Source: Candidatus Pseudobutyricicoccus lothianensis (lineage in GTDB: Bacteria; Bacillota; Clostridia; Oscillospirales; Butyricicoccaceae). From it: a DNA stretch of 64,000 bases. Location of the stretch: assembly GCA_904419295.1 (NCBI GenBank), contig CAJFRA010000005.1, positions 26,771 through 90,770 on the forward strand. Reading direction: 5' to 3'. Under the pieces are notes generated by a model. It worked only from the letters and a program-made list of their open reading frames with translations, did not search any database and had not been told where the DNA came from. Positions 38,689-55,353 of this stretch are shown here, in pieces (position 1 is the first letter of the stretch; each line of letters begins with the position of its first letter). Both the position numbers and the translations under genes were made by a program.

Positions 38689-38716
38689 GATCCCCTCCCG
38701 GCTCTCCGCCCCGGCC

Positions 38717-39118: not shown

Positions 39119-39204
39119 TCGCTCTTCCCCTTCCCCCAACACACAGCGTGTGCGCGGCTGTCTCAGTCCTCTGCCGCTTCACAGGCGCCGGGGCGTATTA
39201 TCGG

Positions 39205-39241
39205 TGATAATGATTATACATCACATCCCCCTGTGGAGCAA
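39205..39241 (-). promoter_or_regulatory. Promoter with PerR/Fur-like box before the coiled-coil/yaaA operon
   Basis: TTGCTC (39236-39241), 17-bp spacer, TATAAT (39213-39218). The minus-strand 15-mer GTATAATCATTATCA (39205-39219) overlaps the -10 and matches the PerR box TTATAATNATTATAA at 13 of 15 positions (counting N). A second palindrome, ATTATC-GGT-GATAAT, spans 39197-39211. Confidence 0.72.
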
Positions 39242-39306
39242 GAGGGGATTGGCCATTCTCCATGGGGAAGTTTTCCCTGCCGCTGCCTGTTGTTTTTTCG
39301 CCCTGT

Positions 39307-39960: not shown

Positions 39961-39975
39961 CACGGCCGCCTCCTT

Positions 39976-40680
39976 TCACAGCGCGGGAAACGCGAAGCGT
40001 TCCACTTGGTCAAACCGGTTGTTCTGCACAAAATATACGGCCTGCTCCCCAGCTGAATAGACAAAAGAGACCCGGGTGGCCCAGATCCCCTCTTGCCGTA
40101 CCCCTTCCAAGGTCTCCAGGGCGTCGGCCACGGTGAATGCCTGGCCAAAGCTGGCCAGACGTTGGGCTGCCCTCTCATAACGGTCATCTCCCGGCAGGGC
40201 AAAAGGCCGGGTGCTTTCCGGCTCCAGCAGCGAACCGTTGGCCAGCAGCGAAAACCGGCCCCTCTCCTCTCGAAATCCAAATCCCGGTTCCACCAGCAAA
40301 GTCCGGCCGCTTTTATCCGATAACATGGCCTGCATGGTGGCGTCTGGGGCGTAGGTGATCCGTTTGGTCTGCAGGACCTCCAGCGCGCCTTCCCAGGTGA
40401 GCTGCCCCAGAACAAAAGCTTCGGTCAGATCGGCCACTGTCATGCACCCCTCCTCTGCCCGGTAGGCCCCAGCCGGGTTGCCGTGGACATACAGCAACGT
40501 GCCCACATTCCCGTTTCGGTTGACCCCATGATAACAATGGCGCCGGCCGTCGGGGCGCAAAATGCCGATGGAAAAGCAATCCTCCCGCTGTAGGATCCGA
40601 TGATCCCATTGGGCGGGGTCGATGTCAAAATTGAATCCTGTGATCAAGTCGCGGCCGCGATAGACGAATCGAATACACAT
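39976..40680 (-). CDS. Putative Ntn-hydrolase, choloylglycine hydrolase-like
   Basis: 234 residues. Cys follows the initiator Met (MCIRFVYRGRDLITGFNFDID), the pattern of N-terminal-nucleophile amidases of the choloylglycine/penicillin V acylase and acyl-transferase group, where Met is removed and Cys becomes the catalytic nucleophile. The FNFDID block resembles the G-R-N-x-D block of bile salt hydrolases. Later HGVNRNGNVGTLLYVHGNPAG also fits. It is shorter than bile salt hydrolases (~320), so the substrate is uncertain. ATG 40680 follows AAAGGAGA. First gene of an operon with the acetyltransferase. Confidence 0.7.
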   Translation of the reverse strand: MCIRFVYRGRDLITGFNFDIDPAQWDHRILQREDCFSIGILRPDGRRHCYHGVNRNGNVGTLLYVHGNPAGAYRAEEGCMTVADLTEAFVLGQLTWEGALEVLQTKRITYAPDATMQAMLSDKSGRTLLVEPGFGFREERGRFSLLANGSLLEPESTRPFALPGDDRYERAAQRLASFGQAFTVADALETLEGVRQEGIWATRVSFVYSAGEQAVYFVQNNRFDQVERFAFPAL

Positions 40681-40791
40681 AGCGTCTCCTTTCTCGCTCT
40701 ATGGTTCCTTTTCTCCATCCTACCACGGTCCATCCGCCTGTTCTACGGAAAAAACGGCACCGAACCGAAGGGTACCCAACCCATGATGCCA

Positions 40792-40829
40792 GAAAAAAGT
40801 CGGGGCCGCTCTGCCGCGGCCCCGGACTG
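40792..40829 (-). terminator. Terminator of the CD3324-family gene
   Basis: AGTCGGGGCCGC paired with GCGGCCCCGGACT, followed by a run of T on the minus strand, adjoining the stop codon. Confidence 0.92.
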
Positions 40830-41093
40830 TTATTTGTGATAAATGATCTTGTGGATGGTATGCACCGACAGGCAATATTCCCCGGCCAGCTGTTCCACAG
40901 AGGCGCCCTTTCGGTATGCCTGCTGGATCTGCCGGTTCCGCTGCTGCAATTCCTGCCGGTAGCCGGAAACTTCACCCCACCGCTTGGGGCGCGACTGGTC
41001 TGCGGGGATATAGAGGTACCCGCCTTGCAGATAGCGCTGCAGCTCTCGGACCAGCCATGGGGGAAGCACGGTCTTCGCGTTGATGTACTTCAC
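40830..41093 (-). CDS. CD3324 family HTH protein
   Basis: 87 residues. KYINAKTVLPPWLVRELQRY, QGGYLYIPA and a C-terminal helix-turn-helix (ASVEQLAGEYCLSVHTIHKII) match the CD3324/Mor-like small DNA-binding family widespread in Clostridia. GTG 41093 follows AAGGAGTG, itself preceded by a small hairpin. Probable transcriptional regulator with unknown targets. Confidence 0.9.
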   Translation of the reverse strand: MKYINAKTVLPPWLVRELQRYLQGGYLYIPADQSRPKRWGEVSGYRQELQQRNRQIQQAYRKGASVEQLAGEYCLSVHTIHKIIYHK

Positions 41094-41106
41094 GGTGGCT
41101 CACTCC

Positions 41107-41122
41107 TTGAAATTCGTTTCAA
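41107..41122 (-). promoter_or_regulatory. Hairpin next to the ribosome-binding site of the CD3324-family gene
   Basis: Perfect inverted repeat TTGAAA-CGAA-TTTCAA directly followed on the minus strand by GGAGTG and the GTG start. Could be an autoregulatory operator or an RNA structure; inference only. Confidence 0.45.
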
Positions 41123-41268
41123 GCAGCAAAGCCAGCCTTGGTCGCGACGGTTCTTACTCCATGCAAACGTCGCTGCCCACTGGCTTTGCATGGAGCTTCA
41201 CTTGGTTGCGCTTCATCAAGACCATCCCTTCTTTTCCCTGTGTTTGTGCAGCCTGTAGAATTTCTTCC

Positions 41269-41298
41269 AGTATACCACGGGCGGCACAAAGGGCGCAA
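41269..41298 (-). promoter_or_regulatory. Promoter of the CD3324-family gene
   Basis: TTGCGC (41293-41298), 18-bp spacer, TATACT (41269-41274). It lies inside the terminator region of the preceding lipoprotein gene. Confidence 0.55.
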
Positions 41299-41317
41299 GC
41301 CACTGGCTGCGCCCTTT
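41288..41317 (-). terminator. Terminator of peptide-binding lipoprotein 1
   Basis: AAAGGGCGCA / TGCGCCCTTT 10-bp stem; on the minus strand it ends CCCTTTGTG, so a modest T-tract. Confidence 0.65.
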
Positions 41318-41345
41318 GGTTTCCTGCTGATTTTGTTGCCGTGCC

Positions 41346-42878
41346 TTACGCCTTCCAGCTGATGTTTTCGTAGCGGATATTGCCCGCTGCGTTGATCTCC
41401 ACGCCCTGCAGATCCGCATCATAGGCCCGTTGGTTGACCGCTTGCCACAGCGGCGCCTGGGGACATTCTTGGTTGAGCAGCGCTGTCACTTGCAGCAGCA
41501 GCTGTTCCCGCGCCTGGTCATCCACAGTGGAAGCGGCTTGGGCGATCAGCGCATCTACTTCCGGGTTGCTGTACCGGGTGGTGTTGGAGGCATCGATGGA
41601 ACCCGTGGTGAACACACCCACCAGGTAGTTGACCATTTCGCTGGAATTGTAGCCGCCGATGGATGCTGTGTAGTCGCCATCGGTGGTCACAGAAAGATAG
41701 GTGGCCAGATCCATATTTTCAATGCCGCACTCAATGCCGATCTCTTTCAGATTGGCCTGGATCACCTCGCCGGCCCTTTTCTTTTTGTCATCTGAGCAGA
41801 TGATAGACATTTCTATGCTGGCCGGATCCACACCGGATTTCTCCATCCACTCCTTGGCCTTTTCCACATCGTACACGTCGGCATTTTCATCGGTAGAGCC
41901 CATCATGCCGTTGGGGCACTGGGAGATCAGGGATTGGCCCACATTGTTCAGCGCCACGGTGATGACGCTTTCTTTGTCAATGGCGCAGTTGATGGCATGG
42001 CGCACGTTCACATTGTCCAGGCCCGGTTTTTCGTTGTTCAGCATCAGCCAGGTGACGTTGGTCGCCTCGTGCTCCAACAGCGTCAAATCCGGGTTTTCCT
42101 GGATGCGTTCGGCGTCCATGGCTTCCACTTCCACCACGAAATCCACTTCGCCCGCTTCCAGGGCAATGGTGCGGCTCGAGCCTTCGGGGATGATCTTCCA
42201 TGTCATGTGTTGAATCGCCGGCGCCCCCATGAAGTAGTCTTCAAAAGCTTCGAATTCCACCTGATCGCCGTGCTTCCACTCCACCAGCTTGTAGGGGCCG
42301 GTGCCCACCGGGTTTTCATTGAAGTCATTGCCTTCATCGATCATCTTTTTCGACAAAATGGCATTGCCGTGGTGGCACAGGTCATACAGCAATGTGGCCG
42401 AAGGTGTGGGAGTATGGATGAGAAAAGTGCTTTCATCCACCACTTCTACGCTCTCCACCGAATTGTTGTACATGTTGATCTCACTGAAAGTCTTGGCCCA
42501 TTCGATGGACGCCTTCACATCCTCGGCAGTCAGCACGCTGCCATCGTGGAACTGGACGCCTTGCTTCAGTGTAAACTGCCAGGTGGTGTCATCCAGATTC
42601 TCATAGGTTTCCACCAAGTTGGGCTCCGGCTGCAAATTGGCATCGGTACGGAAGAGTGTGCTGTACGTCAAGTCATTCATATAGGTGCCTGCAATGGAAT
42701 TGTGGGCATAAGGGTGCAGGCTGGGGGTCTCATTGGCCGTTGCAATGACAATGCTGTCCCGGGCCTCCTCTTTGCCTCCCTCGCTTTGGCCGCTCTGCTG
42801 GGCGCATCCCGCCAGCAAGCTAGCCGATAGAACCGCGGCCAGCAAACCCGCCAGCCATTTTGTCTTTTTGCTCCTCAT
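41346..42878 (-). CDS. Peptide-binding lipoprotein 1 (SBP_bac_5)
   Basis: 510 residues. Lipobox SLLAGC at ~20-25, then the extracellular solute-binding protein family 5 fold (DppA/OppA/NikA). Typical blocks: ETPSLHPYAHNSIAG, WQFTLKQGVQFHDGSVLTAEDVKASIEW, NPVGTGPYKLVEW, VRHAINCAIDKESVITVAL and NGMMGSTDENADVYDVEKAKEWMEKSGVD. Shares the block WKIIPEGSSRTIALEAGEVD with four neighbours. Monocistronic. It should deliver peptides to an ABC importer encoded elsewhere. Confidence 0.95.
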   Translation of the reverse strand: MRSKKTKWLAGLLAAVLSASLLAGCAQQSGQSEGGKEEARDSIVIATANETPSLHPYAHNSIAGTYMNDLTYSTLFRTDANLQPEPNLVETYENLDDTTWQFTLKQGVQFHDGSVLTAEDVKASIEWAKTFSEINMYNNSVESVEVVDESTFLIHTPTPSATLLYDLCHHGNAILSKKMIDEGNDFNENPVGTGPYKLVEWKHGDQVEFEAFEDYFMGAPAIQHMTWKIIPEGSSRTIALEAGEVDFVVEVEAMDAERIQENPDLTLLEHEATNVTWLMLNNEKPGLDNVNVRHAINCAIDKESVITVALNNVGQSLISQCPNGMMGSTDENADVYDVEKAKEWMEKSGVDPASIEMSIICSDDKKKRAGEVIQANLKEIGIECGIENMDLATYLSVTTDGDYTASIGGYNSSEMVNYLVGVFTTGSIDASNTTRYSNPEVDALIAQAASTVDDQAREQLLLQVTALLNQECPQAPLWQAVNQRAYDADLQGVEINAAGNIRYENISWKA

Positions 42879-42919
42879 CTTTTCTCACTCCATCTCTTTG
42901 TTCCCCATTGGGTGAGACG

Positions 42920-42948
42920 ATTGTAGCAGAGATAGAATAAAAATGCAA
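42920..42948 (-). promoter_or_regulatory. Promoter of peptide-binding lipoprotein 1
   Basis: TTGCAT (42943-42948), 17-bp spacer, TACAAT (42920-42925); same TTGCA[A/T] -35 as the other array promoters. Confidence 0.75.
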
Positions 42949-43170
42949 GTTTATGAATTTATTTTCACTTCTGATCTTTTTTCGTTTTTTCTCCTTTTTT
43001 CCAGAATAATTTGTCCAAATTCTCTTTTTTCAAAATTTATTTTTCTCACATTGCTTCACGCACTCTCCAGTTTGTATGTTATAACCAATTTCGAAATGAT
43101 TTTTTTGATACTTTCCATCATTTTCCCGATTTCATTTCCGGGAACCCTTTCTTTGGTATGGAGGACGAAA
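42949..43170. other. AT-rich intergenic spacer
   Basis: About 220 bp rich in T-runs between lipoprotein 1 promoter and lipoprotein 2 terminator. No gene, RNA or repeat seen. Confidence 0.6.
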
Positions 43171-43200
43171 AAGGCGGATGAGAAATATCTCATCCGCCTT
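43171..43200 (-). terminator. Terminator of peptide-binding lipoprotein 2
   Basis: AAGGCGGATGAG / CTCATCCGCCTT 12-bp stem, T-run on the minus strand. Confidence 0.92.
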
Positions 43201-43256
43201 GCTGCTTTTTTTCGTTGCCGCTCTCTTCCCCAGTGTTCTGGGGAAAAAACTTTGTC

Positions 43257-44798
43257 TTATTCCTGCCAATACATGGCGTGCATGAACAGCGTGCCGCCGG
43301 GGTACATGATCACGCCGCCCAATTTGTCGTTGTAGGCACGGATATGCATATCCTGGTACAGCGGGACTTGCGGGCACTTCTCATTGATCAGCGCAATGCA
43401 CTCTTCCAGCACCTTGGCGCGTTCATCAGGGTCGATGGTGGCCGCGGCTTGATCGATCAAAGCGTCTACTTCCGGATCGTTCAAACGGGTCTTGTTGGAG
43501 GCGTTGATGGATACGCTGTGGTACACGCCGATCAGATACTGGACCATATCGGTGGAAGAATAGTTGCCGATGGCCGCGGTGTAGTCGCCCTCTGCCGTGA
43601 TGGACAGGTAGGTGGCCAGGTCCATATTCTCCAGTTCACATTCAATGCCCAGTACGTCTTTCAAGTTGGCCTGGATCACTTCGCCGGCACGCTTCTTCTG
43701 GTCGTTGGAACAGATAATGGACATCTCGATGCTGGCCGGGTCTACGCCGGAAGCCTCCATGTACTCTTTGGCAAGCTCCGGATCATGGGGCAATATGTTT
43801 TCATCGGTGGCACCCGGCATATTGTCCGGCGCCATGGAGTAGGAGGCCGTTCCCAAGCCGTTCAGCGCCACGGTAACGATGCTCTCTTTGTCGATGGCAC
43901 AGTTCATGGCGCGGCGCACATCCACATTGTCCAGGCCAGGCTTTTCGTTGTTGACCATCATCCACATGTGGTTGGTGGCAGCGATCTTATCCAGCTTGAT
44001 GCCTTCATCGTTTTCCAGCCGTTCCACGTCCATAGCCTCTACATCCACCACATAATCCACTTCGCCTGCTTCCAGGGCGATGGTGCGGCTCGAGCCTTCG
44101 GGGATGATCTTCCATGTCATGTACTTGATGGAAGGCATGTGGTCCTCATCCCAGTAGTCTTCAAACATCTCAAACTCCACGCTGTCGCCACGGTTCCACT
44201 TTTTGAACACATAAGGGCCTGTGCCGATGGGGTTTGTATTGAAGTCGTTGCCTTCATCCAGCAGCGCCTTGGGTACGATAGCGTTACCATGGTGGGCCAA
44301 GTCGGCCAACAGAATGGCAGAGGGTCCCGGCGTTGTGATCTTCACGGTATAATCATCCACTTTTTCAATGGATGCCACCGAATTGTTGTACAAGCTCACT
44401 TCGGGGCAAGTTTTGGCATAGGTAATGGAGGCCACCACATCGTCTGCCGTCATCTCGGTGCCGTCGTGGAATTTGACTCCCTTGCGCAGATGGAACAGCC
44501 ACTCGGTGTCGCTGGTGCTCTCAAACGATTCCGCCAAAGCGCCTTCCATCTCCATGTCTTCGTTCATACGGGTCAGCTGGCTGTATGTCATGGCATTCAT
44601 ATAGTTGGATGCAATGGCATTGTGATCGGTGGGCGACATGGATGGGGGCTCGCCCATGGTTGCGATGATAATGGAATCGCGCTTTCCACCGCCTGATCCT
44701 TCTCCTCCGCTTGTCTCTTGGCTGCATCCGAACAGCAGGCCTGCTGTCAGGATCGTGACCAATGTCAGACTCATTGCGCGCAATTTCCGTTTTCGCAT
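43257..44798 (-). CDS. Peptide-binding lipoprotein 2 (SBP_bac_5)
   Basis: 513 residues, lipobox GLLFGC at ~21-26 then a Gly/Ser-rich linker. Family blocks as in its neighbours: EPPSMSPTDHNAIAS, FHLRKGVKFHDGTEMTADDV, NPIGTGPYVFKKW, WKIIPEGSSRTIALEAGEVD and VDVRRAMNCAIDKESIVTVAL. ATG 44798 follows GAGGTGA; the upstream in-frame starts lie near the promoter. Its pocket-side sequence (EMFEDYWDEDHMP, ATNHMWMMVNNEKPG) differs from the others, suggesting different peptide preference. Confidence 0.95.
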   Translation of the reverse strand: MRKRKLRAMSLTLVTILTAGLLFGCSQETSGGEGSGGGKRDSIIIATMGEPPSMSPTDHNAIASNYMNAMTYSQLTRMNEDMEMEGALAESFESTSDTEWLFHLRKGVKFHDGTEMTADDVVASITYAKTCPEVSLYNNSVASIEKVDDYTVKITTPGPSAILLADLAHHGNAIVPKALLDEGNDFNTNPIGTGPYVFKKWNRGDSVEFEMFEDYWDEDHMPSIKYMTWKIIPEGSSRTIALEAGEVDYVVDVEAMDVERLENDEGIKLDKIAATNHMWMMVNNEKPGLDNVDVRRAMNCAIDKESIVTVALNGLGTASYSMAPDNMPGATDENILPHDPELAKEYMEASGVDPASIEMSIICSNDQKKRAGEVIQANLKDVLGIECELENMDLATYLSITAEGDYTAAIGNYSSTDMVQYLIGVYHSVSINASNKTRLNDPEVDALIDQAAATIDPDERAKVLEECIALINEKCPQVPLYQDMHIRAYNDKLGGVIMYPGGTLFMHAMYWQE

Positions 44799-44913
44799 AC
44801 TTTTCACCTCATAACATTCGTGATTCCATGGCCCCGATACAATCGATACCAGCCGCAGAACCCTTTTTATCCGGCAGATCCACATTGGGCGGATCCACTG
44901 GAGTCTGTTACTA

Positions 44914-44942
44914 AGTATAGTCTTTATTTATGCAAGTTGCAA
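44914..44942 (-). promoter_or_regulatory. Promoter of peptide-binding lipoprotein 2
   Basis: TTGCAA (44937-44942), 17-bp spacer, TATACT (44914-44919); leader of ~110 nt. Confidence 0.78.
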
Positions 44943-45230
44943 TATTTATTACAAGATTTCCGTGAAGAACTGGTGATTTTGTCGATTTATTCAATCTGGT
45001 TTTTTCTCTCTTGTATGGAATGACCGAATAATTTGTTTCAATATTTTTGCTTTTAAAGATATATTATATACTATTTAGTTTTTCCAGGGATTTGTTTCTT
45101 TTTTCACAATCATTTGTTCACATACTGTTCACTTATTGGGCGGCTGGAGCAAAGCAGACAGAACCATTTTGGCATCCAGACTGCCAAACGGATCCGCCTT
45201 TTTTCGCCGCTCAAAAGGTTGTGAAAAAAA
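44943..45230. other. AT-rich intergenic spacer
   Basis: About 290 bp with no gene, RNA or clear repeat seen; it ends in the A-run that forms the T-tail of the lipoprotein 3 terminator. Confidence 0.6.
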
Positions 45231-45258
45231 TCCCCCTGCATCCATGGATGCAGGGGGA
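45231..45258 (-). terminator. Terminator of peptide-binding lipoprotein 3
   Basis: Perfect 28-bp palindrome (TCCCCCTGCATCCA arm) followed on the minus strand by seven T. Confidence 0.9.
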
Positions 45259-45287
45259 CCAAACAACAGTCTGCTAATTTGCTTTGC

Positions 45288-46823
45288 TTACCAGGAGCAC
45301 TTTTCAAAATAGATCGTGCCGCTGTCGTTGACTTCCACACCCTTCAGGTTGGAGTCATAGGCGCGCAAAGCAACGGGTTGATACAGGGGCACCTGGGAAC
45401 AAATGCTGTTCAGCAGGGCAGAGCACTGCTCCAGATAGCCATTGCGCTCTTCCACATCGATGGTGGTGGAAGCCTTGTCGATCAGGGCATCCACTTCCGG
45501 GGCGTTCAGGCGGGTCTTGTTGGAGGCATTGATGGAGTCGGAATGATACACACCCACCAGATAGCCCACCATCGTGCTGGAGGTATAACCGCCGATGGCG
45601 CCTGTGTAATCGCCTTCTGCCGTGGCCGACAGATAAGTGGCCAGGTCCATGTTCTCAATGGCGGCGTCGATGCCCAGCACATCCTTCAGATTGGCCTGGA
45701 TCACTTCGCCGGCACGTTTCTTCGTATCGTTGGAGCAGATGATGGAGAGCTCGATGCTGGCCGGATCCACGCCGGAGGCGTCCATCCACTCTTTTGCCTT
45801 TTCAGGGTCATACTGGTCTGCATTTTCTTCGCTGTAGCCATCCAGATTATAAGGGGTCTGGGAAACAGCTGCTTTGCCCAGGCCGTTCAGTGCCACGGTA
45901 ACGATGCTCTCTTTGTCGATGGCACAGTTCATGGCATGGCGCACATTTTCGTTGTCCAGGCCGGGCTTCTCGTTGTTCAGCATCAACCAGTTGTGCTCGG
46001 TGGACTCATATTCCAAAACAGTGATGTTGTCATCGCCCTTCAGGCGTTCATAGTCCATGGTCTCCACTTCAACGATGAAGTCGATCTCACCGGCCTCCAG
46101 AGCGATGGTACGGCTGGAGCCTTCGGGGATGATCTTCCAAATCATATGTTTAATGGCCGGAGCGCCGCCAAAGTAATCTTCAAAGGCCTCGAACTCCAGG
46201 CTGTCGCCCCGTTTCCATTCCACCAGCTTATACGGGCCGGAACCGATGGGCTCTTCGCCAAAATCATGGCCGCTGTCGATCAGCGCTTTGGGCACGATGG
46301 CATTGCCGTGGTGGCACAGGTTGTTCAGCAAGATGGCGTCCGGCACGTTCGTGGTGATGGTAAAGCTGTAGTCGCCGGTCACTTCCACTGTCTCGATGGT
46401 CTTGTTGTACAAGCTTACTTCTGCAAATGTCTTTGCCCATTCCAGCGAAGCTTTCACATCTTCTGCTTTCATCTCGGTGCCGTCATGGAACTTGATGCCT
46501 TCCTTCAGTGTGAAGTTCCAAACAGTATCGCTGACATTTTCATATGTATCCACCAGGTTGGGCTGGGCCTGCATCTCCATATCCGTATTGAACAGAGTGC
46601 TGTAAGTCAGCAGATTCATGTAGGAACCGGCTGTGGCGTTGTGATCCGCTGGATGCACCGAAGGGGTCTCACTCATGGTGGCGATCACAATGGTATCTTT
46701 TGTTTCCCCATTGCCAGTGTCGCTTTGGTCGCTGCTGCCGTTGTTGCTGCAGCCAGCCAGCAGACCAACGGTCATGGCGCCCACAAGCAGCAGGCTGAAC
46801 ACGCGAGATTTCCTGTTTCTCAT
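45288..46823 (-). CDS. Peptide-binding lipoprotein 3 (SBP_bac_5)
   Basis: 511 residues, lipobox GLLAGC at ~20-25 followed by an Asn/Ser/Asp linker. ETPSVHPADHNATAGSYMNL, FTLKEGIKFHDGTEMKAEDV, PIGSGPYKLVEWKRGDSLEF and WKIIPEGSSRTIALEAGEID are present. It is closest to lipoprotein 4 (same signal-peptide start and same leader around the ribosome-binding site), suggesting the most recent duplication. ATG 46823 follows GAGGTGA. Confidence 0.95.
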   Translation of the reverse strand: MRNRKSRVFSLLLVGAMTVGLLAGCSNNGSSDQSDTGNGETKDTIVIATMSETPSVHPADHNATAGSYMNLLTYSTLFNTDMEMQAQPNLVDTYENVSDTVWNFTLKEGIKFHDGTEMKAEDVKASLEWAKTFAEVSLYNKTIETVEVTGDYSFTITTNVPDAILLNNLCHHGNAIVPKALIDSGHDFGEEPIGSGPYKLVEWKRGDSLEFEAFEDYFGGAPAIKHMIWKIIPEGSSRTIALEAGEIDFIVEVETMDYERLKGDDNITVLEYESTEHNWLMLNNEKPGLDNENVRHAMNCAIDKESIVTVALNGLGKAAVSQTPYNLDGYSEENADQYDPEKAKEWMDASGVDPASIELSIICSNDTKKRAGEVIQANLKDVLGIDAAIENMDLATYLSATAEGDYTGAIGGYTSSTMVGYLVGVYHSDSINASNKTRLNAPEVDALIDKASTTIDVEERNGYLEQCSALLNSICSQVPLYQPVALRAYDSNLKGVEVNDSGTIYFEKCSW

Positions 46824-46968
46824 ACGATTTCACCTCATAAAAATATTTTCAACCGGATGGGGATGACGGCCCCTGCCGGCCGAAGGTCAAAATTAACAAA
46901 ACCAACACCGTTCCATTTGTTATCTCTTTTATACAACCCACGACCTGTCGGCTGCTTTGTTTTTGTAT

Positions 46969-46997
46969 ATTATAACGCTTATTTTTCAAATTTGCAA
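46969..46997 (-). promoter_or_regulatory. Promoter of peptide-binding lipoprotein 3
   Basis: TTGCAA (46992-46997), 17-bp spacer, TATAAT (46969-46974); leader of ~140 nt. Confidence 0.8.
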
Positions 46998-47290
46998 AGT
47001 ATTTCCTTTTCACTTTTCTGTTTTCAAAAATAATTGCATAATATTCTCCCTTTTTTATTCATTTTTTCTATACATTTTGTCCATTCAATCTGCTAACACA
47101 TCAAATTTCTTTTCTTGCTTTTTGTGCATCCTGTCTTTTCGGCTTTGATACTTCACACCAATATAAACAAATTGTACAATTATTCCCTCCTATGCGCCAA
47201 TAAAAATTGTATGTATTATATATTTCAGAAGGACTTCTTTTTTGTTACACAGCTTCATATTTCTAACATAATTTCTTCAAAAAAGAATAT
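46998..47290. other. AT-rich intergenic spacer
   Basis: About 290 bp of T-rich sequence between the promoter of lipoprotein 3 and the terminator of lipoprotein 4. No gene or RNA recognised. Confidence 0.6.
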
Positions 47291-47327
47291 AACACGACCC
47301 GCGCCTCGAAAGAACGCGGGTCGTGTT
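47291..47327 (-). terminator. Terminator of peptide-binding lipoprotein 4
   Basis: AACACGACCCGCG / CGCGGGTCGTGTT 13-bp stem, then TATATTCTTTTTT on the minus strand. Confidence 0.9.
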
Positions 47328-47349
47328 AGAACCAATGATGTTGTCAGAA

Positions 47350-48891
47350 TTATTCTGCCCAACTTACATTTTCAAAATACAGTGTGCCGCTGGGGGTGAC
47401 CTCAATGCCCTGCAGGTCCGCATTGTAAGCGCGGAAGTTGACGGGCTGGTACAGAGGCACCTGGGGACACAGACTGTTCAGCAGCGCGACGCACTCCTGC
47501 AGTGTCTCGTTTCTCGCTGTTTCATCCAGGGTGGCGGAAGCTTCGTCGATCAGGGCATCCACTTCCGGGTTGTTGATACGAGTCTTGTTGGAGGCGTTGA
47601 TGGATTTGCTGTGGAACACGCCCACCAGATAGGAGATCATATCGCTGGATGTGTAGTTGCCGATGGAGGCAGTGTAATTGCCTTCCGCTGTGGTGGACAG
47701 GTAAGTCGCCAAGTCCATGCTCTCAATCGTAGCAGTGATACCCAGTACATCATTCAGATTGGCCTGGATCACCTCGGCAGCACGCTTTTTGGTGTCGTTG
47801 GAAGTGATGATGGACATTTCAATGCTGGCCGGATCCACGCCGGAAGCATCCATATACTCCTTCGCCTTTTCCGCATCGTAAGAGTTCACATTCTCTTCGC
47901 TGGCGCCAGGCAGGTTGTTGGGAGCCTGAGAATAGACTGCTGTGCCCATGCCGTTCAGCGCAACAGTGATGATGCTTTCCTTGTCAATGGCGCAATCCAT
48001 GGCCTTTCTCACATTTTCATTGTCCAGGCCGGGCTTCTCGTTGTTCAGCATCAGCCAGTTGTGCTCGGTGGCATCGTATTCATACAGGGCAATGCCGTCG
48101 GCTTCTTTCAGGCGGTCATAGTCCATGGCTTCTACTTCGACGATGAAGTCGATCTCGCCGGCTTCCAGAGCAATGGTACGGCTGGAGCCTTCGGGGATGA
48201 TCTTCCATGTCATGTTCTTAATGGCAGGTTCGCCCTTGAAATAATCGGAGAATGCTTCAAAGACCACGCTGTCGCCGCGGTTCCATTCCACCAGCTTGTA
48301 CGGGCCGGTGCCCACAGGATCTGTGGTAAAGTCATGATCGGAATCGATCAGTTCTTTCGGCACGATGGCGTTGCCGTGGTGGCACAGGTGGGAAAGCAGT
48401 ACGGCCGAGGGGCCAGGGGTCGTGATCTTAACGGTATACTCGTCTACCACTTCCACGCTTTCGATGCAGTCATTGTACAGGCTGACTTCTGCGAAGGTCT
48501 TGCCGTGTTCCAGGGAAGCCTTGACGTCTTCCGCCGTCATCTCGCTGCCATCGTGGAACTTGACGCCTTGTTTCAGCGTGAACTGCCACTCGGTGTCCGA
48601 GATGTTCTCATAGTCTTCTACCAGGTCCGGCACCGGGTTCATTTCCATATCGGTGCGGAACAAGGTGTTGTAAGTCAGCAGGTTCATATAAGAACCGGCT
48701 GTGGCGTTGTGATCCCACGGAGAAAGAGACGGCGTCTCACTCATTGTAGCGATATTGATGCTGTCTCGGCTGCCGCCGCTGTCTGTGCCGCCGCCACCGC
48801 CATTTTCACTGTTGGAACAGCCAGCCAATAGGCCAACCGTCGTAACGCCGGCGAGCAACAGGCTCATAAAACGGGATTTCCTGCTTCTCAT
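47350..48891 (-). CDS. Peptide-binding lipoprotein 4 (SBP_bac_5)
   Basis: 513 residues, lipobox GLLAGC at ~20-25 and a Gly/Ser linker. ETPSLSPWDHNATAGSYMNL, FTLKQGVKFHDGSEMTAEDV, DPVGTGPYKLVEWNRGDSVV, WKIIPEGSSRTIALEAGEID and VRKAMDCAIDKESIITVAL define the family. Ends YFENVSWAE like its neighbours. ATG 48891 follows GAGGTGA. Confidence 0.95.
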   Translation of the reverse strand: MRSRKSRFMSLLLAGVTTVGLLAGCSNSENGGGGGTDSGGSRDSINIATMSETPSLSPWDHNATAGSYMNLLTYNTLFRTDMEMNPVPDLVEDYENISDTEWQFTLKQGVKFHDGSEMTAEDVKASLEHGKTFAEVSLYNDCIESVEVVDEYTVKITTPGPSAVLLSHLCHHGNAIVPKELIDSDHDFTTDPVGTGPYKLVEWNRGDSVVFEAFSDYFKGEPAIKNMTWKIIPEGSSRTIALEAGEIDFIVEVEAMDYDRLKEADGIALYEYDATEHNWLMLNNEKPGLDNENVRKAMDCAIDKESIITVALNGMGTAVYSQAPNNLPGASEENVNSYDAEKAKEYMDASGVDPASIEMSIITSNDTKKRAAEVIQANLNDVLGITATIESMDLATYLSTTAEGNYTASIGNYTSSDMISYLVGVFHSKSINASNKTRINNPEVDALIDEASATLDETARNETLQECVALLNSLCPQVPLYQPVNFRAYNADLQGIEVTPSGTLYFENVSWAE

Positions 48892-49047
48892 ATCGATTCA
48901 CCTCATCCATATTATTTTCAGCCAAGCGCACAAGGCGCCTGAGCTAAAATACACAAATTGCACAAAAGCCCTCATAAAACGATCAGGCAGCCGACGCATT
49001 TCGCAAATCGACCATATATGAATTTGTTTTGCCCTCGTTTTTTGTAC

Positions 49048-49076
49048 ATTATATCTTGATTATTTCAAAAATGCAA
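49048..49076 (-). promoter_or_regulatory. Promoter of peptide-binding lipoprotein 4
   Basis: TTGCAT (49071-49076), 17-bp spacer, TATAAT (49048-49053); leader of ~150 nt. Confidence 0.8.
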
Positions 49077-49416
49077 TCTTTTTGTTTTCTTCTATTTTTA
49101 GATTTAATAATTGTTCATACCAATTTTACTAGTTTTCTGCCTCTATTTTTATTGGGTTATGCCAGTCCCCTGGGCATATAGACGTAATAATTGGCAATTT
49201 ATTTGTGCATTTTCCACATTTGCATCAATGAGTTAAAGTAATTTCATACAAAATTCATAATTCTTTATTTAAATTATTTATTTTATATATATGAATTATC
49301 TATTACCTAATTCCCATTTGGATTCAATATTTATTTAACTTTTGCGTGGCATTCTCCACTTTGTTCCCTCCGTCTGCCTCCGTTGACATAGCCGGCCGCA
49401 CAGCGGAAAAACAGAC
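49077..49416. other. AT-rich intergenic region inside the lipoprotein array
   Basis: About 340 bp, strongly AT-rich (for example the ATTTATTTTATATATATG stretch near 49280), between the lipoprotein 4 promoter and the PadR terminator. No coding frame or RNA family recognised. Could be curved DNA. Confidence 0.55.
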
Positions 49417-49451
49417 AAAAAAAAGCCTCCTCCCATGGTTGGAAGAAGGCT
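49417..49451 (-). terminator. Terminator of the PadR gene
   Basis: AGCCTTCTTCC / GGAGGAGGCT stem (one G-T pair and a bulge) followed by eight T on the minus strand. Confidence 0.8.
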
Positions 49452-49464
49452 GATCGAACCTTTA

Positions 49465-49812
49465 TCAACTTTGCAATATAATTTCTACAGCTTGGCATAA
49501 ATCCCGATAGACTTCTTTGATGTGCTCCAGGTACTCCAGCCCTTCGGGGGTGATCGAATAATAACCGCGGACCCGGTTATCTTCTGTGATCTGCTGCTGG
49601 GAAAGAACAACATAACCCTGTTCCTCCAGCCGGTACAACACGGGATAAAGCAGTGAAATGGTATAGGTACCGCCGCTGCGGCGCTTGAGTTCCTGCTGCA
49701 TCTGGTAAACATACATGCTTTCTTCTTTGAGCAATACCAGCACCAGCATGGGGTTCAAGGCTCTTTTGAAATAGTCTTCAAAACTATGCCCTGCTTTTTT
49801 GGTCTTGGCCAT
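49465..49812 (-). CDS. PadR family transcriptional regulator
   Basis: 115 residues. PadR winged helix: NPMLVLVLLKEESMYVYQMQQELKRRSGG, TYTISLLYPVLYRLEEQGYV, VRGYYSITPEGLEYLEHI, then a short dimerisation helix. ATG 49812 follows GGAGGAG. It lies between lipoproteins 4 and 5, same strand, with its own promoter region carrying an ATGTA-N4-TACAT palindrome. Candidate local regulator of the array. PadR proteins usually repress and are released by small phenolic, peptide or antibiotic ligands; the ligand is unknown. Confidence 0.93.
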   Translation of the reverse strand: MAKTKKAGHSFEDYFKRALNPMLVLVLLKEESMYVYQMQQELKRRSGGTYTISLLYPVLYRLEEQGYVVLSQQQITEDNRVRGYYSITPEGLEYLEHIKEVYRDLCQAVEIILQS

Positions 49813-49858
49813 GGGATTCTCCTCCTTTCTGGCTGGTTTCGTAATCGATTCGTTGGAT

Positions 49859-49872
49859 ATGTAATGCTACAT
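49859..49872 (-). promoter_or_regulatory. PadR-type palindrome upstream of the PadR gene
   Basis: ATGTA-ATGC-TACAT inverted repeat ~47 bp before the ATG, in the size and ATGT...ACAT style of known PadR operators. Autoregulation is inferred. Confidence 0.55.
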
Positions 49873-50076
49873 ACTAACTCTTTTATAAAATAGTGTAACT
49901 CATTAACGTCAAAAAAACAAGACCTGATCCGCAAATATTTCACTTTTTTAAAGCAGGAAATCCCTAAAGTGCCGGCTGCACCCGTCCGGTTTGCTCCAGA
50001 TGCTGTGCTCTTTTTTCAAAACTGCACCTGCCATCCTGTCAATCTTTTCCAAATTTTGTTCCGCTTTTTACATACA

Positions 50077-50108
50077 AAAACATGGGAAGCCGCAGCTTCC
50101 CATGTTTT
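50077..50108 (-). terminator. Terminator of peptide-binding lipoprotein 5
   Basis: AAAACATGGGAAGC / GCTTCCCATGTTTT stem with CGCA loop, T-rich on both sides. Confidence 0.9.
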
Positions 50109-50158
50109 ATCCTCATGGTTGATGGATTCTCATTGGACAAAGTTCCTTTTACCAATCT

Positions 50159-51691
50159 TTATTCCCAATAGCAATCTTTGAAATACAGGTTGCCTACAGC
50201 ATTGATCTCTACGCCTTTCAGGTCTGCATTGTAAGCGCGGACTGCAACAGTTTGCCACAGCGGCACCAATGTACAAACTTCATTCAGATAGGCATTGAGC
50301 TCTTCCAAAATAGCCTGCCGCTCTTCCGCATCCAGTGTCACCATTGCTTGATCGATGTAAGCGTCTACCTTGGGGTCATTCAGGCGGGAACGGTTGGAGC
50401 CGCCGATGGATTCGCTGTGATACATGCCCTGTACGAACAAGAGCTGGTCAGTTGTATTATAGCCGCCCAGGCAAGCTGTGAAATTGCCCTCTGTGGTGGT
50501 GGAAAGGTAGGTGGCCAAGTCCATGCTTTCAATGTCACAGGTGATGCCGATCTCCTTTAGGTTCGCCTGGATCACTTCGGCCGCCCGCTTCTTCATATCA
50601 TTGGAGCAAATAATGGAGAAGTAGATATCCGAAGGGTTCACACCGGATTCGGCCAAATATTCTCGTGCTTTCTCTACGTTGTATTCGTCGGCTCCCTCGT
50701 CGGAAGTGCCGACCAGGTTGATCGGTGTCTGACTCTTAGCTGGTGTGCCCAAGTTGTTTACCGCCACAGTTACCACATCTTCTTTGTTGATGGCACTGTT
50801 GATCGCGTGGCGCACCAAGGAATTATCCAAACCCGGGACCTCGTTGTTCAGCTGCATAAACTGGAGCTCTGTGCCTTCGTATTGATATACTTCCAAATCC
50901 TCGTTGCTTGTGATACGATCCATGTCCATGGTTTCCACTTCTACCACAAAGTCCACTTCGCCGGCTTCCAGGGCGATGGTACGGCTGGAGCCTTCCGGTA
51001 TGATCTTCCATGTCATGTGCTTGATAGCAGGTTCGCCGCCCCAATAATCTTCAAAGGCCTCGAACTCCAGGCTGTCGCCCAAATTCCATGTTTTGAATAC
51101 ATAGGGTCCGGTGCCGATGGGGTTCTCGTTGAAGTTGTTGCCGGCGTCGATCAGCTTTTTGGGCACAATGGCGTTGGCTGTGCCTGTCAGGTTATCCAAA
51201 ATAACAGCACACGGGCCATGGGTGGTGATGCGGACGGTCTCATCATCGATGATATCCACTTGCTTGATGTTTTCGGTGCTGGTCTTGATCAGCGGGAAGT
51301 TCTGCGCCCAATCCAAAGAGGCTTTGACGTCTTCTACGGTCATCTCCTCGCCTGTATGGAACTTGACGCCTTTGCGGATCTTAAAATCCCACTCGGTCTC
51401 ACTGACAGCCTCATAAGATTCCGCCAAGCAAGGCTGAGACTTCATATCCATATCGCGGTACAGCAGGCCTTCGTAGGTGAGCAGGTTCATGTAGCCGCCG
51501 GCTACCGCGTTGTGTTCATTGGGTGTGAGCGACGGCGTCTCACTCATGGTGGCGATCACAATGCTGTCTTTCGTGCTGGTCTTGCCGCCCGAACTGCCCT
51601 CCTGGCTACATCCGGCAACGCCGGCCAGCAACGTGGCCGCAACGGCAAACAATGTGACCATACTCATCATGCGCTTGTTCCGTTTTTTCAT
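50159..51691 (-). CDS. Peptide-binding lipoprotein 5 (SBP_bac_5)
   Basis: 510 residues, lipobox GVAGC slightly further in (~26-30) than in its paralogues. ETPSLTPNEHNAVAGGYMNL, FKIRKGVKFHTGEEMTVEDV, NPIGTGPYVFKTWNLGDSLEF, WKIIPEGSSRTIALEAGEVD, INSAINKEDVVTVAV. It is the most diverged member and the only one not preceded by the TTGCA-type promoter. ATG 51691 follows GAGGTGA; upstream in-frame residues are untranslated leader. Confidence 0.95.
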   Translation of the reverse strand: MKKRNKRMMSMVTLFAVAATLLAGVAGCSQEGSSGGKTSTKDSIVIATMSETPSLTPNEHNAVAGGYMNLLTYEGLLYRDMDMKSQPCLAESYEAVSETEWDFKIRKGVKFHTGEEMTVEDVKASLDWAQNFPLIKTSTENIKQVDIIDDETVRITTHGPCAVILDNLTGTANAIVPKKLIDAGNNFNENPIGTGPYVFKTWNLGDSLEFEAFEDYWGGEPAIKHMTWKIIPEGSSRTIALEAGEVDFVVEVETMDMDRITSNEDLEVYQYEGTELQFMQLNNEVPGLDNSLVRHAINSAINKEDVVTVAVNNLGTPAKSQTPINLVGTSDEGADEYNVEKAREYLAESGVNPSDIYFSIICSNDMKKRAAEVIQANLKEIGITCDIESMDLATYLSTTTEGNFTACLGGYNTTDQLLFVQGMYHSESIGGSNRSRLNDPKVDAYIDQAMVTLDAEERQAILEELNAYLNEVCTLVPLWQTVAVRAYNADLKGVEINAVGNLYFKDCYWE

Positions 51692-52120
51692 GACATTCAC
51701 CTCTTTCATCTCGTGTGGAAAACTGCCAAACATCCGGTCCGTTCCAAGCCTCTTTCCTCCCATTCTTCTGGTGGCCGGGCCGCTGAGATTTGTTTTTTCC
51801 ATTATATGCACGGATGGTTTTCTTGGCAACCTCATCGAACAAGTAACGCACACCGAAAATTGTTAATAATTAATAGTTTTTAACTACTAATTAATTATTT
51901 TTTGTGTATTCTGCTTTATTTCTTTCAATTACTTTTTACTCTTCCTTGGTGTTTTCAGCTGTTTCACCAATTTCCCGGCAACTCTGTAGATGCTTCTCAC
52001 AAAGTTTTTTACATGTCCATCGATTTTGAGTTCTTGCACTTTTTTGCAAGGGAAATCACTTGTCTTTCTTTGAAAAACAACACACTCCGCTCACACGTTT
52101 CTTTGCCTGCTCAAACAAAG
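51692..52120. other. Leader and AT-rich spacer upstream of lipoprotein 5
   Basis: Contains an imperfect AT-only palindrome around 51861-51897 (TTAATAGTT...AACTACTAA arms), a possible operator near the lipoprotein 5 start of transcription. The stretch 51900-52120 shows no gene or RNA. Confidence 0.5.
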
Positions 52121-52151
52121 AAAAGAGGCCATGCAGCACATGGCCTCTTTT
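52121..52151 (-). terminator. Terminator of the M13/HAD operon
   Basis: AAAGAGGCCATG / CATGGCCTCTTT 12-bp stem, 5-nt loop, just past the HAD stop. Confidence 0.9.
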
Positions 52152-52163
52152 CGTCTTTGACTG

Positions 52164-52793
52164 TCAGTCTTGCAGCAGCCCGGGCAGGTCTGCCATGCTG
52201 CCAATGGTGTGATCCGGCTGGTGCGCTTGCCCAAAACCGTATTGAGCGAACACAAAGGGTACGCCGGCCTGCCTGGCGGCCTGCTGGTCTCCGGCTGTAT
52301 CTCCCACATAGATAGGGGCCTGCAGCCCATTGCGCCGGGCCACCAGCTGGATGTTCTCGCCCTTGCTCAGGCCCGTAGCGCCAAACGATTCAAAATCGGT
52401 GATGTATTTGCCCAGTCCTGTGACTTGGAGGAAACACTGGATGTATCCATCCTCACAGTTGCTGACGATACAGAGGGGGAACCGGCGGCTCAGCTGCGCC
52501 AATGTCTGTTCCACCCCGTCAAACACTCTGCCGCCGTGAACCGCCAGATATTCGTGCTCCCGCTGGCAGCAGGCATCCATGAGCTGTGCCTGTTCTCCCT
52601 CTGTCTGCCGGGGAAACATCCGGCGGGCGATCTCGTCCATGGGCAGCCCCATGTAACCGCGCAATTCCTCCGCCGTCAACGGCGGGCGGAGGCCCGGATG
52701 GCGGGCGATGACTTCATTCCAAGCCACCAGGACACCTTCTACCGCATCCCACAGCGTGCCATCCAGGTCCAATAAGATCCCGTCTGTTTTCAT
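52164..52793 (-). CDS. HAD family phosphatase (phosphoglycolate phosphatase-like)
   Basis: 209 residues. Motif I LLDLDGTLWD (nucleophile Asp), motif II CIVSNCEDG, motif III Lys in LSKGENIQ, motif IV VGDTAGDQQAARQAG; helical cap between residues ~17 and 85. Acts on small phosphate esters in the cytosol. It begins 9 bp after the M13 peptidase gene, so they are co-transcribed, though no functional link is obvious. Confidence 0.92.
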   Translation of the reverse strand: MKTDGILLDLDGTLWDAVEGVLVAWNEVIARHPGLRPPLTAEELRGYMGLPMDEIARRMFPRQTEGEQAQLMDACCQREHEYLAVHGGRVFDGVEQTLAQLSRRFPLCIVSNCEDGYIQCFLQVTGLGKYITDFESFGATGLSKGENIQLVARRNGLQAPIYVGDTAGDQQAARQAGVPFVFAQYGFGQAHQPDHTIGSMADLPGLLQD

Positions 52794-52802
52794 ACTGCTC
52801 CT

Positions 52803-55145
52803 TTACCAAATCTGCACCCGGTCAGCTGGCGCCACATACATGCCGTCCCCTTCCTGGATGCCATACGTCTGATAGAATTCTTCAAAATTTTGCAGCGTGC
52901 GGTTGACCCGTACTTTGTTGAAGCTGTGCACATCCACCGAAGCCAACAATTGCAGCGTGCTGCGGCTGCTGGTCATCGTCCAGCACTTGGCCAGGTTTTC
53001 AAACAAAGCCTGGTAGTCCGGCTCGCCCTCCAGCCGGGCCGTTTCCAAAATACAGGCCATGCTGCCCAGGTCGGCAATGTTTTCGCTGAGGGTCCGGGTC
53101 CCGTTGTTGACGAAGCCGGGCGCCACCTCAACGCCGTCGTAGAAAGCTTCCACTTCGCCGCAAAGCTGCTGGAAATGCTCATAATCCCCAGGCTGCCACC
53201 AATCTGTCGCATTGCCTTGGGCATCGAACTTGGCGCCATTGTTGTCAAAGCTATGGGTGATCTCGTGGGCGATGACAAAGCCGATGCCGCCCAAATTCTC
53301 TTCCCGTGAGGCGTCTTTGTCGTAGAAAGGCGCCTGCAAAATGCCCGCCGGGAACACGATCTCGTTGTTGCCCGCATTGTAATAGGCATTGACCGTATAC
53401 ACCGTCATCATCCAGCCGCTTTTGTCCACCGGCTGGTCTTGCATCCGGGCCACTTGTGCGTTCCCCGCCTTGAGCAGGTTTACAGTGTTCTGGTAGTAAT
53501 CATCCGTGATCTCCACTCCATCCATGGAGTCATCCCATTGATCTGGATAGCCGATCTTCAGCGTCATGGCATCCAGCTTTTCAATGGCTTTGTCCTTGGT
53601 GGCCTGGCTCATCCAATCCAGGTCCTCCAGCCGCTTCTTGTAGACTTCGATGAATTCCTCCACCATCTGTGTGACATCCGCTTTGGCCTCTTCGGAAAAA
53701 TATTCTTCCACATAGATCTGGCCCACGTAGTCGCCCATGACCTGCTGGGTCACCAGGGAAGCCGCCTCTTCCGGTTCTTTGCCCCCTTCTGCCCCAAAGA
53801 ATACCTGTTGGAACTCGGTGTTCACCTGGTCCACATCGGCACTCATGGCGGCGCCCAAGCCCTGGATCAGGGACAGTTTCATCAGCGCTTTCAGCGTATC
53901 CACTTGTTCATCCGTCCAATAGGCTGCATTGGCTGCCAGCAAGCCGGGGTCCGTGACCAAAATTTGATCGGCCTGCTTCAGTCCATCCACTTGCAGCACC
54001 TGGTCCAGCCCCATGTTGGGAGCCGCCTGGCGCAGCTGGTCCATGGTGTAGACATTGTACACTTTGTCGATGTTCCCTGCATCTTCCACCTTCATGGAAG
54101 CTTTGGCCAGCGCCTCTTCCATGGCGTAGATCCGCCCGGCATCCTGCTGGGCTTGTTCGGCGCTCTCGCCGGCCAGCTGCAGCAGAGCAGCCAATGTCTG
54201 GCGGTATGCCTCCATGGCTTGGCCGCCGGCGCTAAAGTAGTCGGCCGTCAGATCGGCAGAGGCGCCGGAAAAGGTGAGCATATACCGGTCGCTGTTTTTG
54301 AGGTCCACCGTCAAGCCGAAGGTGCACAGCAGGCTCAATCCCAGCTCCTCTTTCACCCGGTTGCGCAGGGCCACCACGTCCTTCATGTTTTGGACTTGGT
54401 CTACCGCATCCAAATAGGGCTGCAGCGGGCTCAAATCGTTGACCTGGCCTTTTTTCACCGCCAGTACGCCTTTGTAAAAATCGCCGATCTTCTGCTGGAC
54501 CGACCCCGGCTGGCTGTTGCCTTGGGCGGCCTGCCGCACGATCTGCTCCACCTTCTCGTTGTTGCTGGCGGTCATTTCGTTCATAGCGCCGTTGGAGATC
54601 TCACCGCTGGGAATGGTGCTGTTCACCAGCCAATCGTGGTTGACCGTGGCGTAAAAGTCATCCCGGCGGTTGCTCCCTTCCAGCGCCCAGACCCGGCGGA
54701 TCATCCATTCCATCTGCTCCACCGTCACGTTGTCCAACGGGCTCAGCTTCCCATCGCCTGTACCGGCCAGAATGCCGGCGGCCGAAAGGGCTGCCACCTC
54801 TTCCGACGCCCATTGGGGCACATCGGTGAATGTGGTCTTGGCCAAACCGGTGCGCAGCGCGTCCCCCATGGGGGTCGGCAGCTGGCCGAAAGCCCGGCTC
54901 AGCATGGTCATGGCCTCGGCCCGCGTGACCAGTTCATCTTCCCGCAGATCGCCGTCGCCATTGCCCTGGATGATGTCTTCCTTTTTCAAACCGGGGTTGT
55001 AGTCATCCGCTGCCGCCAGCAGCATTTCCACCACTTGTCCCCGGGTGGCATATGCCGTTTGCCGGGGTGCTGCAAAAGCCTGGGGCAGGGTGGTCGCCAA
55101 CATCACCGCTGCCAGCAGGCCGGCAAGCATCCGTCTTTTTTTCAT
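52803..55145 (-). CDS. Secreted M13 (neprilysin/PepO-type) metallopeptidase with SLH domain
   Basis: 780 residues. Signal peptide ~1-25 (cut after AFA), SLH-like repeats to ~155 (LVTRAEAMTMLSRAFGQLP, FTDVPQWASEEVAALSAAG), then the M13 endopeptidase. Its features are NDFYATVNHDWL-like entry, NAYYNAGNNEIVFPAGILQAPF, zinc site HEITH (627-631) in HEITHSFDNNG, and ENIADLG (Glu688, Asp692). It should cleave oligopeptides at the cell surface, feeding the peptide uptake proteins encoded nearby. ATG 55145 has GGAGGG at ~10 nt. Wall attachment through SLH is unusual for M13. Confidence 0.95.
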   Translation of the reverse strand: MKKRRMLAGLLAAVMLATTLPQAFAAPRQTAYATRGQVVEMLLAAADDYNPGLKKEDIIQGNGDGDLREDELVTRAEAMTMLSRAFGQLPTPMGDALRTGLAKTTFTDVPQWASEEVAALSAAGILAGTGDGKLSPLDNVTVEQMEWMIRRVWALEGSNRRDDFYATVNHDWLVNSTIPSGEISNGAMNEMTASNNEKVEQIVRQAAQGNSQPGSVQQKIGDFYKGVLAVKKGQVNDLSPLQPYLDAVDQVQNMKDVVALRNRVKEELGLSLLCTFGLTVDLKNSDRYMLTFSGASADLTADYFSAGGQAMEAYRQTLAALLQLAGESAEQAQQDAGRIYAMEEALAKASMKVEDAGNIDKVYNVYTMDQLRQAAPNMGLDQVLQVDGLKQADQILVTDPGLLAANAAYWTDEQVDTLKALMKLSLIQGLGAAMSADVDQVNTEFQQVFFGAEGGKEPEEAASLVTQQVMGDYVGQIYVEEYFSEEAKADVTQMVEEFIEVYKKRLEDLDWMSQATKDKAIEKLDAMTLKIGYPDQWDDSMDGVEITDDYYQNTVNLLKAGNAQVARMQDQPVDKSGWMMTVYTVNAYYNAGNNEIVFPAGILQAPFYDKDASREENLGGIGFVIAHEITHSFDNNGAKFDAQGNATDWWQPGDYEHFQQLCGEVEAFYDGVEVAPGFVNNGTRTLSENIADLGSMACILETARLEGEPDYQALFENLAKCWTMTSSRSTLQLLASVDVHSFNKVRVNRTLQNFEEFYQTYGIQEGDGMYVAPADRVQIW

Positions 55146-55197
55146 TGCTATCGGTCCCTCCTTTTCGCCGGTCTCAGTTTATCCGGCTTCCTTCTGC

Positions 55198-55226
55198 ATG
55201 ATACACGTTCTTTTGCACAAAATCAA
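55198..55226 (-). promoter_or_regulatory. Promoter of the M13/HAD operon
   Basis: TTGATT (55221-55226), 17-bp spacer, TATCAT (55198-55203) on the minus strand. Confidence 0.65.
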
Positions 55227-55327
55227 CACATCCTATTTTGTATTACAAAATTGTAAGAATTTCGACGGATCTTTGTCAGAATTTTGTGCTTTTTCCTTCG
55301 TTCCCGCGCTTTCTCCCCAGAAACGGA

Positions 55328-55353
55328 AAAGCGGCAGCCTGCGCCGCCGCTTT
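55328..55353 (-). terminator. Terminator of the amidase_2 gene
   Basis: AAAGCGGC / GCCGCTTT stem with a 10-nt loop and TTTT on the minus strand. Confidence 0.7.

Follow-up and report, generated by a model that had tools for sequence, protein, structure and literature searches.

Descriptions of ATP-binding cassette (ABC) importers usually present a complete set that includes one receptor or a few. Many-receptor importers and orphan substrate-binding proteins (SBPs) are already known. Pseudomonas aeruginosa DppA1-A5 are reported to be several paralogous receptors of one translocator, DppBCDF (PMC4206461), and the Opp system of Borrelia burgdorferi reportedly combines five oligopeptide-binding lipoproteins with common permeases and ATPases (PMC5736914). 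The Bug proteins of Bordetella form a large binding-protein family, mostly without assigned function (PMC11452294), and in E. coli R383 and D436 of DppA hold the dipeptide ends and form salt bridges with E41 and R42 of DppB (PMC12136057). Here we analysed a stretch of 64,000 nucleotides (the window, G000:C5:26771-90770) from the draft genome of Candidatus Pseudobutyricicoccus lothianensis, which is 2.62 Mb in 81 contigs and 98.75% complete. The window carries an array of five genes for SBP lipoproteins of the SBP_bac_5 family, and the genome as a whole encodes 15 intact proteins of the same subfamily. Of the importer genes that stand beside this subfamily elsewhere, only one altered OppB gene was found in this host; we refer to its product as OppB*.

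A subfamily of fifteen binding lipoproteins

The preliminary description of the window recognised five SBP_bac_5 lipoproteins of 510–513 residues in a row on one strand, and this is borne out by five intact open frames on the minus strand that span 41346-51691, with the lengths counted from the Met preceding the signal peptide. SBP_bac_5 is the sole Pfam family matched by all five proteins (E 2e-78 to 3e-85). All pass the curated PF00496 cut-off of 32.4 at 264–287 bits, and each has a lipobox Cys after the signal peptide. The best NCBIfam match, Opp5A_nikA (NF045468), reached 187–203 bits for the five, which is below its curated cut-off of 600. The row itself is not continuous, as a PadR-family gene lies between genes 4 and 5 (Table 1).

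A Pfam search of the genome returned 22 SBP_bac_5 matches. Nineteen are intact genes, two are parts of a single broken copy, and the last is a remnant. Fifteen of the intact genes belong to the window-type subfamily: five in the array, three on contig C16, and a single gene on each of C30, C12, C9, C48, C44, C15, and C26. Of the remaining four, three are the SBP genes of Opp operons, two on C25 and one on C2, and the fourth is a lone gene on C10. All 15 paralogues pass the PF00496 cut-off, and a pattern search placed the lipobox Cys at residue 20–28 in 14 of them; the C15 protein, which the pattern missed, has an AAGC lipobox visible in its sequence. The broken copy (L034, 4691-6267) and the remnant (L033, 4142-4755) are signs of gene birth and decay in the same genome. 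Near-identical assembly duplicates are ruled out, since protein identity between array members is 52.5–72.4% and no two of the 15 paralogues share an identical stretch of DNA longer than 45 nt. These values indicate that the array genes are old copies.

Relationships were determined from a tree that combined 122 subfamily proteins with two outgroups and was built with a quick method and Shimodaira–Hasegawa-like approximate likelihood ratio (SH-aLRT) support. The only other genome of the genus compared was Intestinimonas butyriciproducens An565 (G053; about 70 contigs), which encodes 12 subfamily SBPs in full, besides three pieces located at contig ends. One clade (support 98) unites 14 of the 15 host SBPs with 11 of the 12 An565 rows, while the fifteenth, encoded on C12, pairs with An565 L076 among SBPs of other genera. 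Array members 1–4 fall in a ten-row fork (support 83) together with the C15 protein and five An565 proteins, and member 5 stands apart, beside its own An565 orthologue. The array is thus not a single tandem clade. Tandem duplication, as it was first proposed, is partly supported by the shared fork of members 1–4; other copies lie within that fork, and member 5 has a separate position. The common block WKIIPEGSSRTIALEAGE, which had been offered as proof of such duplication, does not serve as one by itself, because it is conserved across the wider subfamily, with several positions invariant or above 90% among 69 sequences.

The orthologues of members 4 and 5 are adjacent in An565 (L045, 2435-3967 and 403-1980), with identities of 79% and 76% and ratios of nonsynonymous to synonymous substitution (dN/dS) of 0.164 and 0.113, respectively. 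This adjacency indicates that these two array genes were already neighbours before the two species diverged. No PadR match was found in the corresponding stretch of L045. Across the five SBP orthologue pairs tested, dN/dS was 0.11–0.29 in every case.

The ligand of these proteins was considered from structure and sequence. The model of protein 4 has the family fold and resembles binders of peptides, glutathione, nickel-histidine, opines, and sialic acid, and with such diverse ligands none is claimed from the fold. In one alignment, across a gappy stretch, the column of DppA R383 is a gap in all 15 host paralogues and in all 122 subfamily proteins. None of the 15 has Asp in the D436 column, though eight carry an acid one column later. 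The operonic relatives described below also lack R383 (18/18). Because the charged anchors of the DppA type are unaligned in all 15 SBPs, the peptide binding ascribed to the array by the preliminary description appears doubtful on sequence grounds. Its suggestion that the ligand-pocket regions differ may hold in part: by entropy, the most variable 15-residue segments of the 14-member clade are 266-280, 461-475, 131-145, 71-85, and 416-430, the last of which covers the D436 region.

Importer genes and the lone permease OppB*

A search with the subfamily profile gave 70 distinct named loci. In 17 of these the SBP gene is directly followed by OppB and then OppC, with OppD and OppF whole in 13 and cut by the end of the stretch in four. 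The 17 operons come from Lachnospiraceae, Pseudoflavonifractor, Christensenellaceae, Treponema, Anaerolineaceae, and others. In three more loci (L073, L087, and L109) the importer genes precede the SBPs, and many of the remaining loci are short stretches that for this reason carry no information on absence.

Three OppC_N genes occur in the host genome, and its complete Opp systems likewise number three (C25a, C25b, and C2), each with an SBP of its own that is distant from the subfamily (89–159 bits against the subfamily profile). Seven of its 24 BPD_transp_1 permeases are of the Opp type, four OppB and three OppC, and the other 17 have no match to any Opp permease. The fourth OppB, encoded on C12, has no partner gene beside it; this is OppB*. 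A seventh oligo_HPY match (C18) is partial, contains a stop, and was judged to be another kind of locus. No opp operon adjoins the SBP genes of the array or of the eight other loci in the flanks read, which downstream on C15 and C48 cover only about 230 and 320 nt owing to the contig ends. Of the proposal that the receptors share one importer, the excess of receptors (19 intact SBP_bac_5 genes against three complete systems) and the lack of an adjoining importer are supported. A single importer is not supported in the form first stated, as the cognate OppC and OppF were not found and the OppB is lone and altered. The window had also been described as free of permease and ATPase genes. It has no BPD_transp_1 permease, and one of the 24 lies on contig C5 outside it, but an ABC ATPase of another kind is present at 2078-3019 (-) (PF00005, 72 bits).

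The cognate OppF and OppC were searched in eight genomes, namely the host, An565, and six relatives. For OppF there was no close match in the host or An565 (best 54–55% identity) versus 77–91% in all six relatives, and for OppC none (best 43–44%) versus 62–71% in five of the six; the sixth, G058, is 83% complete. The OppF search listed in the host only the three OppD proteins of the other systems, no dedicated OppD search having been made. The OppB proteins of the 17 operons are closest, within this genome, to OppB* (about 50–56%).

OppB* matches PF00528 (BPD_transp_1; 152.6 bits) and carries the N-terminal domain PF19300 (49.2 bits), and its structure matches E. coli OppB and DppB. The An565 orthologue is 81% identical, is under purifying selection (dN/dS 0.135), and lies 1.3 kb from the orthologous SBP gene. 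A relative with 53–57% identity, again standing alone, occurs in five of the seven genomes of genus g8; G057 and G059 (88% complete) gave matches of ordinary length only. A complete cognate operon is present in all four g8 OppB* genomes read (G056, G060, G061, and G062), and in G058 only the cognate OppF was seen. The seven OppB* proteins form one clade (100/99) nested in the cognate OppB clade. No OppC, OppD, or OppF partner was found beside any of the seven in the stretches read, the G058 contig ending about 0.8 kb downstream. In all five g8 genomes (L158-L162) a gene encoding a protein of about 985–1030 aa is found close to OppB*, and this constant neighbour indicates that the place of OppB* is conserved.

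The OppB* sequence is altered on the face that E. coli DppB turns towards its binding protein. A GDxG segment is present in none of the seven OppB*, in 22 of 24 cognate OppB, and in all three other OppB of the host, and the acid aligned to DppB E41 is absent from all seven OppB* and present in all 24 cognate OppB. Loss of this scoop-loop acid is weakened as a hallmark of OppB*, as the other three host OppB also lack an acid in the E41 column. The lysine aligned to DppB K243 is retained in 7/7 OppB* and in all 35 rows of the alignment. In DppB this lysine is an ATPase contact. Both losses occur together in 43 among the 120 database relatives listed. Two of the 43 show no difference from the query where they match it, and another, 62% identical, is from Acidaminobacterium chupaoyuni (Oscillospiraceae), in a record whose longest contig is 2.4 Mb. 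Among 394 genomes of the order, seven have a match at E <= 1e-95; six carry OppB*, and one (G085) has an ordinary cognate OppB.

We also surveyed 87 genomes of the family, where an SBP_bac_5 count of 19 for a genome means at least 19. Fifty-three have 0–3 SBP_bac_5 matches. Several genera are rich in SBPs and poor in OppC, with SBP_bac_5 to OppC at 13:1 in G060, 11:1 in G063 (64% complete), and 12:1 in G064 (84% complete), and both are numerous in other genomes, such as G083-G085. Long rows of subfamily SBPs were also seen in a Defluviitaleaceae metagenome-assembled genome (MAG), WRBA01 (L094, 7998-17597; L106, 1-10664). A single OppB of the ordinary type lies among these SBPs with no OppC adjoining, and that genome has seven OppC_N matches.

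Possible routes from receptor to translocator

We tentatively favour, as a possible reading, that the 15 SBPs are interchangeable ligand receptors on a shared importer, with OppB* as its probable dedicated remnant. We infer each step from binding to transport: every lipoprotein, mostly transcribed alone and predicted to be membrane-anchored, would catch a different ligand, and all would dock onto and feed one common translocator that joins OppB* to an OppC-type partner and OppD/OppF ATPases taken over from any one of the host's three other Opp systems. This reading draws on the 15 intact receptors set against three complete systems, on the subfamily heading SBP-OppB-OppC operons elsewhere whose OppB best matches OppB*, and on the failure to find the cognate OppC and OppF while OppB* is intact, conserved near an SBP, and keeps the K243-aligned lysine. 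The dN/dS values of all five SBP pairs likewise support it, and P. aeruginosa DppA1-A5 and Borrelia Opp offer precedents for one importer served by several receptors. In its most specific form, "many receptors, one permease, no dedicated motor", the OppB* lineage of two genera, lacking its own OppC and ATPases, would be the common port for the 15 receptors, either as a homodimer or with drafted Opp subunits; this we consider unlikely.

Several observations weigh against sharing through OppB*. In g8 it stands alone with no adjoining SBP, and all four genomes read also carry the cognate B-C-D-F operon in full. Loss of GDxG and of the E41 acid may, to judge from the alignment, weaken contact with the SBPs, a point tempered by the three other host OppB that lack the acid as well. 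The coupling lysine, being present in every row, does not point to a particular ATPase, and OppC, OppD, and OppF would have to be borrowed from distant systems, 38–54% identical to the cognate set. The proximity of OppB* to an SBP gene counts as a single inherited event, for which a hand calculation gives a chance of roughly 3% (15 genes and 2.3 kb on either side in 2.62 Mb), and the genomes compared are drafts.

It is also conceivable, if somewhat unlikely, that the 15 lipoproteins dock on one of the complete Opp systems as it is, most likely the C25a type, leaving OppB* to another role. C25a is the nearest to the cognate set (OppB 45%, OppC 43%), and several receptors per importer are known elsewhere. 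The C25a-type operon of An565 (L049, 430-5192) has a subfamily SBP 1.4 kb upstream, and a C25a-like operon in the MAG JAEEIC (L070, 600-8725) has one upstream at about 4.7 kb. In the host genome, however, no subfamily SBP adjoins any of the three systems, all of which own a distant SBP, and the conserved OppB* beside an SBP stays unexplained. Action without any importer, whether surface capture, sensing, or another binding role, is quite unlikely in our view. It would agree with flanks free of importer genes, with the cognate OppC and OppF not being found, and with the absent DppA anchors, and SBPs that activate sensor kinases have been described in P. aeruginosa (PMC11113362). Operonic relatives that have an importer nevertheless lack the anchors too, hence their loss marks no change of job, and no sensor kinase or chemoreceptor was seen beside the SBPs by eye in the open reading frame lists, no profile search having been made for them. 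An importer that is present and was missed in both drafts (81 and about 70 contigs) is improbable. Contigs C15 and C48 do end within about 330 nt after their SBP genes, which leaves some residual room for a gap common to both assemblies, but both genomes are about 99% complete, and the operon missing from both was assembled in G056, G060, G061, and G062 at about 50–100 contigs.

If the receptors still feed transport, subunit mixing between Opp systems becomes directly testable; if they do not, a large binding-protein family has another job. With the DppA peptide-end residues unaligned, labelling such genes as parts of a "peptide ABC transporter" is unsafe either way.

Array features, neighbouring genes and known systems

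Coordinates of the array features and of OppB* are collected in Table 1. Each array gene had been credited with its own terminator. Strong hairpins do follow genes 3 and 4, the sites after genes 2 and 5 are less certain, and the scan listed nothing within 500 nt downstream of gene 1. In total it gave 13 terminator-like sites versus 14.5 expected in shuffles, which is not above the shuffled level. Hairpins after four of the five genes would be consistent with separate transcription of the array genes. Rfam at gathering scores detected no known RNA regulators in 38000-55500, and a search for a common upstream motif by word counts against shuffles gave only A/T-rich words scarcely above controls.

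Table 1 Features of the array (window positions) and the lone permease gene (position in its own locus).
Feature	Position	Strand	Details
SBP_bac_5 lipoprotein 1	41346..42878	-	510 aa; PF00496 269.6 bits; within the 14-member clade of the host genome
SBP_bac_5 lipoprotein 2	43257..44798	-	513 aa; PF00496 287.2 bits; fork with 1, 3, and 4 (support 83)
SBP_bac_5 lipoprotein 3	45288..46823	-	511 aa; PF00496 264.3 bits
SBP_bac_5 lipoprotein 4	47350..48891	-	513 aa; PF00496 280.6 bits; An565 orthologue; model with predicted local distance difference test (pLDDT) of 92.5
SBP_bac_5 lipoprotein 5	50159..51691	-	510 aa; PF00496 272 bits; An565 orthologue
PadR-family gene between array genes 4 and 5	49465..49812	-	PF03551 53.9 bits; candidate regulator only
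Palindrome 3' of gene 2, possible terminator	43171..43200		13 pairs; scan gave + strand only
Terminator-like hairpin 3' of gene 3	45229..45260	-	14 pairs and T-run
Terminator-like hairpin 3' of gene 4	47290..47328	-	16 pairs and T-run
Terminator-like hairpin 3' of PadR gene	49424..49451	-	12 pairs and T-run
Hairpin 3' of gene 5, possible terminator	50080..50105		read by eye; absent from scan list
OppB*	L035 3028-3933		301 aa, intact; 2.3 kb from the fifteenth SBP (C12)

The next gene upstream of the array is a HAD hydrolase (52164-52793, - strand). Two genes upstream, on the same strand, an M13 metallopeptidase with an S-layer homology domain is encoded at 52803-55145 (-), and this surface peptidase may be a functional neighbour of the binding lipoproteins. 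A small helix-turn-helix protein of the CD3324 family (40833-41093, -; NF040785, 108.6 bits) directly follows the array.

In the open-licence literature, mainly at the level of titles and abstracts, we found no recognised description of this SBP family or of lone OppB genes, and no report of 15 receptors occurring together with a lone, re-shaped OppB clade and without the cognate OppC and OppF. By description, the Bordetella Bug proteins are alike in being a large family of binding proteins. They belong to a different protein family. The SBP-OppB-OppC-OppD-OppF operons of Lachnospiraceae and others (L059, L062, L078, and L096) share the SBP subfamily and the OppB lineage with the host but have a complete importer beside the SBP. 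Compared with E. coli DppABCDF (PMC12136057), the SBP fold, the OppB* fold, and the coupling lysine are alike, whereas the host SBPs lack aligned R383 and D436, and OppB* lacks GDxG and the E41 acid. Borrelia Opp likewise has multiple paralogous binding lipoproteins, but there the permeases and ATPases are reported to be present and the ligands to be peptides. P. aeruginosa DppA1-A5 with DppBCDF resembles the host in having several paralogous family-5 receptors, whose sharing of a translocator is putative here. That system reportedly has five receptors and an intact DppBCDF, whereas the host has 15 receptors for which the cognate OppC and OppF were not found.

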